Shown in pieces: positions 3,154 to 22,439 of a stretch of DNA of 23,523 bases. Every line of letters begins with the position of its first letter. Position 1 is the first letter of the stretch. Under the pieces are notes generated by a model. That model was not told where the DNA came from, searched no databases, and worked only from the letters and a program-made list of their open reading frames with translations. Source of the DNA: an uncultured Beijerinckiaceae bacterium. Lineage in GTDB: Bacteria > Pseudomonadota > Alphaproteobacteria > Rhizobiales > Beijerinckiaceae. The position numbers and the translations under genes are program-made. The stretch covers positions 1-23,523 of the forward strand of contig CALMGA010000178.1 in the NCBI GenBank assembly GCA_937863205.1. The letters run 5' to 3'.

Positions 3154-3948
3154 TTAGCGCCAAGCGGAGGGCAGGTGAAATCCAGGGCAGGTCTCGATCA
3201 TGGCGGCGATGCAGGGGCGCAAGTCGGACGCCGAGCGCGCGAGCAGCCTCGCAAGGACGATGCCGTCCTTGGCGCTGACGCCCCCGTCCAGGAAAGGATC
3301 CCGCGACCGGAACGGGGCGAGAACCGCCTCCAGCCGCTCGCCGCAGCCGGCCACTTGCGGCGCCGTGAACAGGAGCTGGGCGACGGCGCGGGCGCCGCCG
3401 GCCGTGGCGGGTCGATCGAGCACGTCGCCGATCGCGCCCTCGATGCGGCTTTCTTCGGCATGGATCAGCCGGCCGTCGCGCCGGATGCGCCAGCTGTCCT
3501 GCAGGCTGCCGTGCGTCGCGTGCTCGCCGTAGGCGGGGCGGCCGAACTGCATCGTTTCGCAGGCGAGGAAGGTCGCATCGGCGGCGACGTCGACCGTGAA
3601 GCGGCGGTGGAGCCGCGCACCATCGAACAGGATCGTCTCCTGGGGCAGCCACGCCAACCGGGTCGCGGCGGCGGCAGCGAGCGCGGTGCCGACTGTGCTC
3701 GCAGCCCCGTCGCTGCGATAGATCTTCTCGGCCGACGCGCTTGACACCGTGACCTCGGCGCCACGCTGGAGAACAACGGCGATCGACACCGCGTCCCCGG
3801 CGACGAGGCCGCCACCCGTGTTGACGGCGAGAGCTTCGCAGGTTGCGCCGCGGGGATGGCGCAGCCGCAGGGAGCCGGTCTCGAAGCGATGGGTCGCCGA
3901 GGTCCGCCCCGACCTGTTCTCGTAAGTGACGCGCAGGTGATGGTGCAT
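3154..3948 (-). CDS. ureD: Urease accessory protein UreD
   Basis: UreD (UreH) is the scaffold chaperone that binds apo-urease and recruits UreF and UreG for nickel insertion. Family landmarks are [20 protein letters not shown], the nearby [13 protein letters not shown] segment, [14 protein letters not shown], and a C-terminal domain ending in a conserved tryptophan region (FHLPSAWR). The ATG at 3946-3948 gives 264 residues and follows a GAGAGG ribosome-binding sequence. An in-frame ATG at 3970-3972 would add eight residues but lacks a good ribosome-binding site. It is the first gene of the urease set. The gap of about 80 bp to the upstream hydrolase means both could be on one transcript. Confidence 0.95.
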
Positions 3949-12817: not shown

Positions 12818-12847
12818 TTGTCCTTCGGGAATGTTCTTTCTATGTTC
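12818..12847 (+). promoter_or_regulatory. Promoter overlapped by a LexA-type operator (GTTC-N7-GTTC)
   Basis: GTTC TTTCTAT GTTC occupies 12833-12847, the direct-repeat SOS box of alphaproteobacterial LexA. It overlaps a candidate promoter with TTGTCC (12818-12823), a 17-bp spacer and TATGTT (12841-12846). Bound LexA would cover the -10 element. The small gene at 12868 starts 21 bp downstream. The T-rich spacer and the position argue against chance. The repressor itself is not in this window. Confidence 0.68.
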
Positions 12848-12867: not shown

Positions 12868-13119
12868 ATGGCGACCAACTTCATCATCCTGCCCTTCGTC
12901 GTCGCGAAGCGCGGCGGCAAACTCGTACCCTGCCCAGCCCAGAAGGCGAAGGATGCATCGAGGGCCATCGCCGCCGCCGAGCGCATGGCCGGGCAATACG
13001 CTGGCATCGTCGTCCTGGAGGAGTATTCGGATCCCGAGCAGGACATCTATGCCGAACCCAAGCTGTTGCGCGCCATCGGCCGGTTTCCCGAAGAGATGAT
13101 CGAAAGCCTCGCAGCTTAG
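12868..13119 (+). CDS. Small conserved-looking protein of unknown function, candidate SOS gene
   Basis: The 83-residue product begins MATNFIILPFVVAKRGGKLV, continues with an alanine-rich helix (KDASRAIAAAERMAGQYAG), a strand VVLEEYSD and an acidic stretch, and ends RAIGRFPEEMIESLAA. It looks like a compact folded cytoplasmic protein with no membrane segment or known catalytic motif. I believe similar small proteins occur in other Rhizobiales but cannot name a family. ATG 12868 follows GGAG at 12856-12859. The TAG stop (13117-13119) lies inside the first arm of a hairpin repeat, which may serve as terminator. The LexA-type box over its promoter suggests DNA-damage induction. Confidence 0.78.
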   Translation: MATNFIILPFVVAKRGGKLVPCPAQKAKDASRAIAAAERMAGQYAGIVVLEEYSDPEQDIYAEPKLLRAIGRFPEEMIESLAA

Positions 13120-19434: not shown

Positions 19435-20265
19435 TTGAAAGCCTCGCTCGTTCAAATGAACTCGATCGGCGACAAGCCGGCCAACATCGCCGCCGCCGCG
19501 TGCCTGATCGAGGAGGCGGTCGCCTTCGACAGGCCGGACTGGATCGCCCTGCCGGAGTGCTTCGATTTCCTCGGTGGGCGGCGCGACGACAAGATGGCGG
19601 CGGCCGAAGTGCTCGGCGACGGACCGGCCTACCTCGCGATGAGCCGCCTGGCCGCCGCGCACGGCGTGTTCATCCACGCCGGCTCGCTGCTGGAGCGCGT
19701 GCCCGGCGAGGCGCGCATCCGCAACACCAGCGTGGTGTTCGACCGCCGGGGCCGCGAGGTCGCCCGCTACCGCAAGATCCATATGTTCGACATCGAAACA
19801 CCCGACGGCATGAGCTATCGCGAAAGCGCCTCGTTCGAGCCCGGCGGGGAGGTGGTCACCTATGACTGCGAGGGCGTCACGATCGGCTGCGCGATCTGCT
19901 ACGACCTCCGTTTTCCCCGGCTTTTCGCCGCGCTCGTCGCGCGCGGCGCGCAGGTCATCGTTCTGCCCTCGGCCTTCACCCTGCAGACCGGCAAGGACCA
20001 CTGGGAGGTGCTGTGCCGCGCCCGCGCCATCGAAACGCAGACCTACCTGCTCGCCCCGGCGCAGACGGGGACGCATCGCGTGGGCGACGAGGTCCGACAA
20101 ACCTTCGGCCATTCGCTCGCGGTCGATCCCTGGGGCCACGTCGTCGCCCGCGCCTCGGACGGACCCGGCTTCACGACGGCGCGGGTCGAGCCGGATCGCG
20201 TCGCCGCCGTGCGCCGGCGGATGCCGGTGCGCGATCACGCGGTGACGTTTCCCGACGCTCAGTAG
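19435..20265 (+). CDS. Nitrilase-superfamily carbon-nitrogen hydrolase (Nit1/Nit2-like amidase)
   Basis: A cytoplasmic thiol amidase of 276 residues. Its catalytic triad is visible: Glu41 (ALPECFDF), Lys114 (YRKIHMFD) and Cys155 (CAICYDLRFP). The CYDLRFPRLF segment and length fit the Nit1/Nit2 branch, which hydrolyses deaminated glutathione or omega-amides of 2-oxo acids. The start appears to be TTG at 19435, with GGAG six bases upstream; no ATG or GTG lies in frame before the first beta strand (KASLVQMN). The gene converges with, and overlaps by 7 bp, the DUF2125 gene on the other strand. In many alphaproteobacteria a nitrilase of this type sits near glutaredoxin genes, which are not seen here. 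Confidence 0.92.
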   Translation: MKASLVQMNSIGDKPANIAAAACLIEEAVAFDRPDWIALPECFDFLGGRRDDKMAAAEVLGDGPAYLAMSRLAAAHGVFIHAGSLLERVPGEARIRNTSVVFDRRGREVARYRKIHMFDIETPDGMSYRESASFEPGGEVVTYDCEGVTIGCAICYDLRFPRLFAALVARGAQVIVLPSAFTLQTGKDHWEVLCRARAIETQTYLLAPAQTGTHRVGDEVRQTFGHSLAVDPWGHVVARASDGPGFTTARVEPDRVAAVRRRMPVRDHAVTFPDAQ

Positions 20266-21275
20266 AGGGGCGTCAGCTCGATCCCCGTCGTCACCGGGCC
20301 GATCCCGAGATGCCCGTTGCCCAGCGTGATCGGCAGGGCGAGGCTGCCGGGCGTCGCCGGCGCCTTGCGCGGTCCGCCGCCGAACAGCGTGCTGACCAGC
20401 GAGCCAACGGCGACCAGGTTGCCGCTGATGCCATAGCGCGCCAGGATCGGTTCGAGGCCGAAGAACTCCGCGTCGAGCTTGCCCCTGGGTCGGTGCCCGT
20501 CGTCGAGGCGGACGGTGCCCGTCGCCGTCATGCGGGCGGCGGCGCGGGCGGCGGCGAAGCGGTCGACATCGAGGCGGCCGCCGTTGAGACGCCAGCGTTC
20601 CATCGCCTGCGCCGGTGTCTGCACGTCGCCGACGTCGGCGTGATGCAGGCGGCCGCCGAGGCTGGCATCGACCGGCGCCGTGCCGCCGAGCAGGTCGTCG
20701 ATCTGTGGCAGGATCGCGGCCTTGAGGCTGACGGCGAAGGCCAGCGTCGGGTTGGCGTCGTCCGGCAGCAGCGTCGCCCTCGCATCGAGCGCGTCGGCGC
20801 GGCCGCTTTCGTTGGCGCCGACAAACGTGCCGCCCACGGCGACGTCGCTGCCGCGCAGGGCGAGCATCCTGATGTCAGGCAAGGTGGCGAGATCCAAGGC
20901 AAGGCTGCGCCAGCCTCCCTCGACATCGGTGGCCCCGTCCGATGTCTTGAAGGCGAAGGGTGGCTGCAGGGTCACGACGAGGTGGCGCGGGCTGCCGAGG
21001 CTCACGCTGGCGGTCGCACCGGCGAGGCTCGCTTGGACGTGCTGCCCCATCGCCTGCCCGCTGTAACTCGGCCGGTCGCAGCTGATCCTCAGGGCGAAGG
21101 GATAGCCGCCGATCTGGCGGTCGGGGCAGCTCCAATCCCGGCCTCTCCCGGCTTCGGCGGTGATCCAGGCCTGCGTCCGCTCGCCAGCCTCATGCGCGGC
21201 GAGAACCCACAGCGCGCTCCAGCCGGCCGCGAGCAGTAGCGCGGGAACAAGCAGCCGCACGGCGATCTTTCGCAT
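20259..21275 (-). CDS. DUF2125 domain-containing protein
   Basis: A 338-residue protein with an N-terminal signal anchor (VRLLVPALLLAAGWSALWVL, residues 7-26), so most of it should face the periplasm. It then shows the DUF2125 pattern: RDWSCPDRQIGGYPFALRIS with two cysteines, followed by repeated beta-rich segments and alternating hydrophobic strands resembling AsmA-like or other periplasmic beta proteins. The function of the family is unknown. It is largely restricted to alphaproteobacteria, which supports the taxonomic reading. The gene stands alone, divergent from the ChaC-like gene with about 120 bp between starts. Confidence 0.88.
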   Translation of the reverse strand: MRKIAVRLLVPALLLAAGWSALWVLAAHEAGERTQAWITAEAGRGRDWSCPDRQIGGYPFALRISCDRPSYSGQAMGQHVQASLAGATASVSLGSPRHLVVTLQPPFAFKTSDGATDVEGGWRSLALDLATLPDIRMLALRGSDVAVGGTFVGANESGRADALDARATLLPDDANPTLAFAVSLKAAILPQIDDLLGGTAPVDASLGGRLHHADVGDVQTPAQAMERWRLNGGRLDVDRFAAARAAARMTATGTVRLDDGHRPRGKLDAEFFGLEPILARYGISGNLVAVGSLVSTLFGGGPRKAPATPGSLALPITLGNGHLGIGPVTTGIELTPLY

Positions 21276-21395: not shown

Positions 21396-21959
21396 ATGGC
21401 GGCTGGGACGGACTTCTGGGTGTTCGGTTACGGTTCGCTGATGTGGCGACCGGGCTTCGACTTCGCCGAGCGGACGCTGGCGACGATCCGCGGCTACCGG
21501 CGGGCGCTGTGCGTGTATTCGCATCACCACCGCGGCACGCCGGAGCGGCCGGGCCTCGTGCTCGGACTCGACCGCGGCGGCTCCTGCAAGGGCGTGGCAT
21601 TTCGTGTCGAGGCTGCGCGCGCCGACGACGTCCTCGCCTATCTGCGCGCCCGCGAGCAGGTCACGATGGTTTATCGCGAGGTCCGCGCCCGCATCAACCT
21701 GGCCGACGGCCGCGAAGTGATCGCCCTGTCCTACGCGGTCGACAGGCGTCACAAGCAGTATGCCGGTGCGCTGGAGCTGAGCGCGCTGGAGCGCCTCGTG
21801 GCGCAAGGTGTCGGGCTTTCCGGGGCCAACCCGGACTATGTCCGGCAGACCTATGAGCATATGGTGGAACTCGGTATCCACGACCGGCTGCTCGCGACGC
21901 TGGTTGCGCGCCTGCCGGCATCCCCGGCTGCGGCGCCGGTCCCTACCGTGGGACTTTGA
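21396..21959 (+). CDS. ChaC-like gamma-glutamylcyclotransferase
   Basis: This 187-residue enzyme of the ChaC family cleaves glutathione to 5-oxoproline and Cys-Gly. The substrate-binding loop VFGYGSLMW (residues 9-17) and the probable catalytic Glu87 in AYLRAREQVTMVYREV are present, as is the C-terminal NPDYVRQTYEHMVELGI segment typical of the family. The length matches bacterial ChaC. ATG 21396 is preceded by purine-rich GGGAGCAGGG. With the nitrilase nearby, which in its best-known form repairs deaminated glutathione, the pair may reflect glutathione turnover, although the genes are not in one operon. Confidence 0.92.
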   Translation: MAAGTDFWVFGYGSLMWRPGFDFAERTLATIRGYRRALCVYSHHHRGTPERPGLVLGLDRGGSCKGVAFRVEAARADDVLAYLRAREQVTMVYREVRARINLADGREVIALSYAVDRRHKQYAGALELSALERLVAQGVGLSGANPDYVRQTYEHMVELGIHDRLLATLVARLPASPAAAPVPTVGL

Positions 21960-22034: not shown

Positions 22035-22388
22035 TCAGGCCTGGGCCTGCCGCAGGTCGTCCACCGCCGCCTTTCGCATCGCCCCATCCTCGACGAGGAG
22101 ATGAACGTGCCATTCCTCGGCGCCACCCGCCAGTCCGGCCGCTCGAAGCGAACGAACATCGCCGTGGTGTTCGACCTGCCGAACGAAGAGGGGGAGGCGC
22201 GCCGCCCCTCGACGCCGAACAGGAATGACGATGCAGCCGTCGAAGTCGGGCAGGCCGCACTCGGATGTGCCGCCTTCGACAGGAAAGACGGAGACGATGT
22301 AGCGGCGCCCGCTCGCGCCAAGCCAGCAATGGAAGCGCGAAGCGATCGACGTTTGCGCGGTGCTGCGCACGCAGGCATCAATGTTCAC
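22035..22388 (-). CDS. Small protein of unknown function, candidate SOS gene
   Basis: Starting at GTG 22386-22388, which has a strong GGAGGG seven bases upstream, the product has 117 residues. It contains GRRYIVSVFPVEGG, CGLPDFDGCIVIPVRRRG and EEWHVHLLVEDGAMRKAAVDD, a pattern of beta strands and a final helix that looks like a real folded domain. I recognise similar hypothetical proteins in Rhizobiales but no function. Cysteines at CVRS, FHC, ECG and DGC are spread out, not a metal motif. Its promoter contains a LexA-type box, so it may be part of the DNA-damage response. Confidence 0.75.
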   Translation of the reverse strand: MNIDACVRSTAQTSIASRFHCWLGASGRRYIVSVFPVEGGTSECGLPDFDGCIVIPVRRRGAARLPLFVRQVEHHGDVRSLRAAGLAGGAEEWHVHLLVEDGAMRKAAVDDLRQAQA

Positions 22389-22410
22389 GGCTGTTCCCTC
22401 CGGCAAACAC

Positions 22411-22439
22411 AAGATACGAACAGAAAAGGAACAGGTCAA
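22411..22439 (-). promoter_or_regulatory. Promoter with LexA-type operator between -35 and -10
   Basis: On the minus strand TTGACC (22439-22434) and TATCTT (22416-22411) are separated by exactly 17 bp. The spacer contains GTTC CTTTTCT GTTC (22432-22418), the GTTC-N7-GTTC SOS box of alphaproteobacteria. Transcription would start near 22404, leaving a short leader with the GGAGGG site before GTG 22388. Confidence 0.72.

Follow-up and report, generated by a model that had tools for sequence, protein, structure and literature searches.

LexA of Alphaproteobacteria is known to act through a motif of the type GTTC-N7-GTTC (PMC8565304; PMC3323433; PMC12700426), and the regulon predicted for the alpha group (Rhizobiaceae, Brucellaceae and Rhodobacteraceae) includes, in the text of that study, lexA, recA, dinB or polB, uvrA and imuA-imuB-dnaE2, together with recG, ruvCAB, parE, tag, comM, dnaE and splB (PMC3323433). 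The alphaproteobacterium Caulobacter also has a gene with an SOS box, CC3518 (COG2827), that is described as encoding a small single-domain relative of the UvrC N-terminal endonuclease (PMC1839093). Here we analyze the gene for a 117-residue protein in contig CALMGA010000178.1 of an uncultured Beijerinckiaceae bacterium (the window, which comprises the entire 23,523 nucleotides analyzed). We propose, with a probability of roughly 0.6, that LexA represses this gene as part of the Hyphomicrobiales SOS regulon and that it encodes a repurposed, GIY-YIG-like, DNA-directed protein. The family is not named in the text of the regulon predicted for the three families above (PMC3323433), and our literature search found no description of it as SOS-regulated in the portions of the sources covered, with an unnamed 'hypothetical' entry being possible in Erill et al. 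2004, RegPrecise, figures or supplements.

On the minus strand, GTTCCTTTTCTGTTC is separated from TTGACC and from TATCTT by one base each, filling the 17-nt promoter spacer just as the earlier note had claimed (Table 1). Judged from the sequence, transcription plausibly starts near 22404. The relatives in which we looked for the same arrangement came from the 130 best-scoring of 212 matching genomes of the order (plus genome G122), 21 loci of a genome collection and six loci of a class-wide draw, which gave 156 loci (L001–L158, with L022 and L052 left out as copies of L002) and, after dropping two identical domains, 154 distinct relatives. GTTC-N7-GTTC occurred within 330 nt upstream of the gene in 87 of the 154, and another 11 had only the reversed form, GAAC-N7-GAAC, for a total of 98. 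In the same upstream region, controls with altered spacing or reversed letters gave 0–3 matches and mixed orientations gave 2 and 5, and an equal length downstream gave 2 and 1. (Earlier counts had been 89 of 156 before dereplication, and 81 with another match start.) Among the 21 collection loci, 14 carried the exact box within 300 nt (L001–L010, L013, L016, L018 and L020), one carried it reversed (L021) and three carried a one-letter variant (L011, L014 and L017); the upstream sequence of L015 spanned only 141 nt. This conservation upstream of orthologues supports the proposal that a LexA-type operator is positioned to block the promoter of an uncharacterized gene.

Table 1. Coordinates of the promoter, operator, gene and conserved neighbors in the window.
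Feature	Coordinates	Strand	Basis or remark
-35 hexamer TTGACC	22434..22439	-	sequence; matches TTGACA at 5/6 letters
LexA-type operator GTTC-CTTTTCT-GTTC (GTTCCTTTTCTGTTC)	22418..22432	-	in 17-nt spacer; conserved upstream of relatives
-10 hexamer TATCTT	22411..22416	-	sequence; matches TATAAT at 4/6 letters
Shine-Dalgarno-like GGAGGG	22396..22401	-	sequence
117-residue protein, GTG start at 22388, GIY-YIG-like predicted fold	22035..22388	-	family mostly without GIY-YIG catalytic residues
chaC-type gamma-glutamylcyclotransferase gene, convergent neighbor	21396..21959	+	Pfam PF04752; conserved context
DUF2125 gene, conserved context	20259..21275	-	Pfam PF09898

LexA itself was present in all 26 genomes of relatives that we examined, and in 24 of them the operator lies upstream of lexA, where it reads GAAC-N7-GAAC in the lexA sense. 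G307 and G321, the remaining two, which lack the usual operator at lexA, also have no box at the family gene. LexA control of the family is well supported by sequence conservation, and we infer that LexA binds this operator and that damage induces the gene. The 56 relatives without an operator clustered on a FastTree tree (11 changes versus a shuffled mean of 46), which we used for clustering only because it is built from few columns and has weak forks. Of 11 genomes picked because their family gene was boxless, nine nonetheless have the operator at lexA, so that loss of the operator at this gene does not amount to loss of the LexA system. The protein is kept without the operator in large groups, which take in L051, L059 and L061 with their group, as well as L083, L084, L087, L092, L093, L097, L099 and L117.

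Counting boxes within the window was less informative. The window contains four GTTC-N7-GTTC sites, versus a mean of 0.50 in shuffled sequences (four were reached by one of 100 shuffles), of which one falls within the chaC reading frame (21422–21436), one has the GC-rich spacer TCGCCCC (3310–3324) and two (12833 and 22418) combine a T-rich spacer with a position directly upstream of a small gene. The motif is common genome-wide, with 71–134 sites per genome in five relatives, and exceeded its reversed-letter control in only two of the five (slightly in G003 and clearly in G005). A count taken from a single window proves little. What settles the reality of the operator at 22418 is its conservation upstream of relatives, not the window count.

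The placement of the operator relative to the promoter varies among relatives. A TTGAC lies within 30 nt upstream of the operator in 68 of the 81 relatives and at 13–15 nt in 62 of the 81, and the commonest operator spacer is TATATTT (9 of 81). Among the 87 operators in the same sense as that of the window, the -10 hexamer falls within the seven spacer bases in 52 and overlaps a half-site in 12, with no promoter obtained in 16. The window operator sits instead between the -35 and -10 hexamers, a rarer placement that it shares with L080 (the promoter scan assigned seven rows to this class, of which we used these two, the other five having implausible promoter positions). Nine of the 11 relatives with reversed operators belong to one group, and the scan placed nine of the 11 reversed operators just 3′ of a -10. 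In several clades (L023–L036, L038, L039 and L043) the operator ends 1–2 nt 5′ of the ATG, which leaves little room for a leader, so that leaderless transcripts are possible there.

For the 117-residue product, which the earlier note had called uncharacterized, neither Pfam nor NCBIfam nor the PDB gave a sequence-family match. Its AlphaFold2 model was confident (predicted local distance difference test score, pLDDT, of 88.9) and showed a compact alpha/beta domain whose helices are short; for this model VIA-align ranked five GIY-YIG entries on top (2lwf at 7.1; UvrC 1yd6, 1yd2 and 1yd3 at 6.5; T4 EndoII 2wsh at 6.3), with other folds starting from 5.2. We take 2lwf and T4 EndoII to be GIY-YIG domains; the UvrC entries are so named. 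A lower-confidence model of a Phreatobacter member (pLDDT 77.4) again ranked 2lwf (5.9) and UvrC 1ycz (4.5) first. In addition, one family member matched, at E 2e-8 and 33% identity, a Bradyrhizobium barranii plasmid protein annotated 'GIY-YIG nuclease family protein' (WP_231146028.1, plasmid pCC829_3), here called the bridge protein. Weighing against this assignment, a profile–profile comparison with 29 GIY-YIG domains was not significant (1.5–3.2%, with the best shuffle at 0.8%), and bridge proteins scored below the cut-off for the Pfam GIY-YIG profiles. The window protein matched neither PF01541 nor PF20815, and no GIY-YIG family was among those matched by 32 members. We therefore call the protein GIY-YIG-like, probably descended from a GIY-YIG domain, and leave it outside the nuclease family.

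Across 159 distinct domains, one set of residues is nearly invariant, W-G-SG-Y / E-H-H / D, with W in 154 of 157, G in 156 of 157, S in 150 of 157, Y in 153 of 158, E in 151 of 159, the two H in 156 and 150 of 159, and D in 157 of 158. The canonical catalytic residues, whose register in the family alignment we took from the bridge protein, fare otherwise: the column of the YIG tyrosine holds A in 51, W in 42 and S in 23 of the 159 domains, with Tyr outside the seven commonest letters, and the helix arginine is kept in only 18 of 144 domains and the glutamate in 53 of 158.

A protein search returned 13 relatives besides the window's own entry at E <= 0.001, the nearest with 74% identity over 92%, and a profile built from 34 sequences retrieved 372 proteins, with no precomputed Pfam domain among the 120 listed. 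Where the names of the 21 collection loci were informative, most pointed to Beijerinckiaceae, alongside Rhodoblastus, Phreatobacter and Salinarimonas. Within the order to which Methylocapsa acidiphila belongs (Hyphomicrobiales), 212 of 397 genomes carried a relative (two of them in two copies), versus seven of 385 in the class-wide draw, of which at least three (G001, G047 and G122) fell in the same order; in the draws made, the family is therefore nearly confined to Hyphomicrobiales. Its neighborhood is partly conserved, with counts that are lower bounds because flanks were often short: a convergent chaC downstream in at least 78 of the 154 relatives and a DUF2125 gene downstream in at least 22 (many flanks being too short to reach it), and, upstream, plsC in at least 65 and a ribonucleotide reductase gene in at least 41 (its identity Pfam-checked at one locus: PF02867, TSCPD). 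In three genomes (G005:C10, G137:C3 and G070:C1) the gene lies ~4–6 kb from a uvrC-sized frame of 684–689 codons with a GIY-YIG domain.

Relatives also occur on ten IMG/VR viral contigs (L255–L264); when these are compared with the 154 chromosomal-locus domains, every best match falls in the reversed-operator group. Six of these contigs carry, upstream and on the same strand, a repressor with helix-turn-helix and Peptidase_S24 domains, and L263 has one that is 98.9% identical (7 of 10 in all). GTTC-N7-GTTC precedes the family gene in one of the ten, and no match to chaC, DUF2125 or plsC was found near any of the ten copies. Because S24-type repressors undergo cleavage in the SOS response, the viral copies may also be damage-controlled, with adjacency falling short of proof. 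The copies in L256 and L264 adjoin an integrase, and that in L259 is followed by an Nmad5 gene.

In the mechanism that we favor, LexA would sit on GTTC-N7-GTTC across the promoter of the undamaged cell and block RNA polymerase; upon damage, RecA-stimulated cleavage of LexA would release this block, allowing one small protein to be made. That protein, probably descended from a GIY-YIG-fold DNA endonuclease domain that has lost the canonical catalytic Tyr and Arg in most members, would most likely bind DNA that is damaged, branched or single-stranded, or else the UvrC-type repair machinery, thereby aiding processing during the SOS response. A chance match or the site of another regulator, leaving the gene outside LexA control, would fit the 56 relatives without an operator and the fact that the motif is not rare in these genomes; we consider it most improbable given the 98 relatives with an operator versus 0–5 for control patterns, the identical operator type at lexA and the fixed distance from operator to TTGAC. 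Tentatively, and with doubts, we entertain a broader scheme in which the family is a hitherto undescribed, order-wide SOS effector with a GIY-YIG scaffold whose active site has given way to a new one, W-G-SG-Y / E-H-H / D, and which has stayed under damage control in two independent ways: on chromosomes by LexA, through an operator moved and inverted in different clades, and in prophages by S24-type repressors.

The W-G-SG-Y / E-H-H / D residues might together make up a novel catalytic centre on this GIY-YIG-like scaffold, in which case the protein would be an active nuclease that nicks damaged DNA as UvrC or Cho does. W, E, H, H and D are more constant than a plain scaffold needs, and CC3518 shows a small UvrC-like gene with an SOS box (PMC1839093). 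However, the bridge protein, with its canonical motif, has most of these conserved residues too, so that they may be structural, and we think such an activity unlikely. When its DNA is damaged, Caulobacter produces small inhibitors of division, of which SidA is SOS-controlled. DidA is a second one, which is SOS-independent (PMC4211646). A checkpoint or prophage-type regulator aimed at division, replication or ribonucleotide reductase and not at DNA would be consistent with these inhibitors, with the 41 relatives downstream of a ribonucleotide reductase gene and with the repressors that adjoin the viral copies. But the upstream neighbor is not constant, since 65 relatives follow plsC instead, and the compact alpha/beta model with short helices appears unlike a membrane inhibitor; we judge this role distinctly unlikely and retain a LexA-repressed, DNA-directed protein as our preferred reading.

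The earlier note had hinted at a 'scattered SOS module' that takes in this gene and another small gene, which our results do not support. The box GTTCTTTCTATGTTC at 12833–12847 (plus strand) lies 20 nt before the ATG of an 83-residue frame (12868–13119, plus strand) whose product has 66 other relatives by protein search. Distant relatives of this product occurred in only seven of 199 genomes of the order, with the reversed box GAAC-N7-GAAC upstream in two of the seven, and both families co-occurred in two of the seven (G070 and G175). The two genes may have LexA in common without forming a module.

If LexA control of the 117-residue family is true, rhizobia and their relatives share a widespread SOS gene that is an overlooked part of their damage response, and its product would be a damage-response protein with an endonuclease-like fold minus the known catalytic residues. 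The family would also offer a natural series of operators on one gene (over the -10, in the spacer and inverted after the -10) in which to follow the rewiring of LexA operators. Compared with the N-terminal GIY-YIG domain of UvrC (1yd6, 1yd2 and 1yd3) and the N-terminal domain of a plant glutaredoxin (2lwf), the family mostly does not conserve the Tyr and Arg and has an extra N-terminal hairpin, W-x-G-x-SG-x-x-Y, whereas WP_231146028.1 retains YVGQSENLRDRL..H and is a plasmid gene between transposase genes. E. coli Cho, compared by its description only, is likewise damage-inducible with a UvrC endonuclease domain but is larger and cuts DNA (PMC1839093), and a Bacteroidetes exonuclease with a GIY-YIG domain (COG0847), described as predicted to be under LexA, resembles the family in domain and SOS control but is an exonuclease fusion from another phylum with another LexA motif (PMC8565304). 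Caulobacter CC3518, again compared by description only, differs in that the window family is mostly without the GIY-YIG motif and has no PF01541 match; by analogy, it is the precedent in this class for a small, SOS-controlled, UvrC-like protein.
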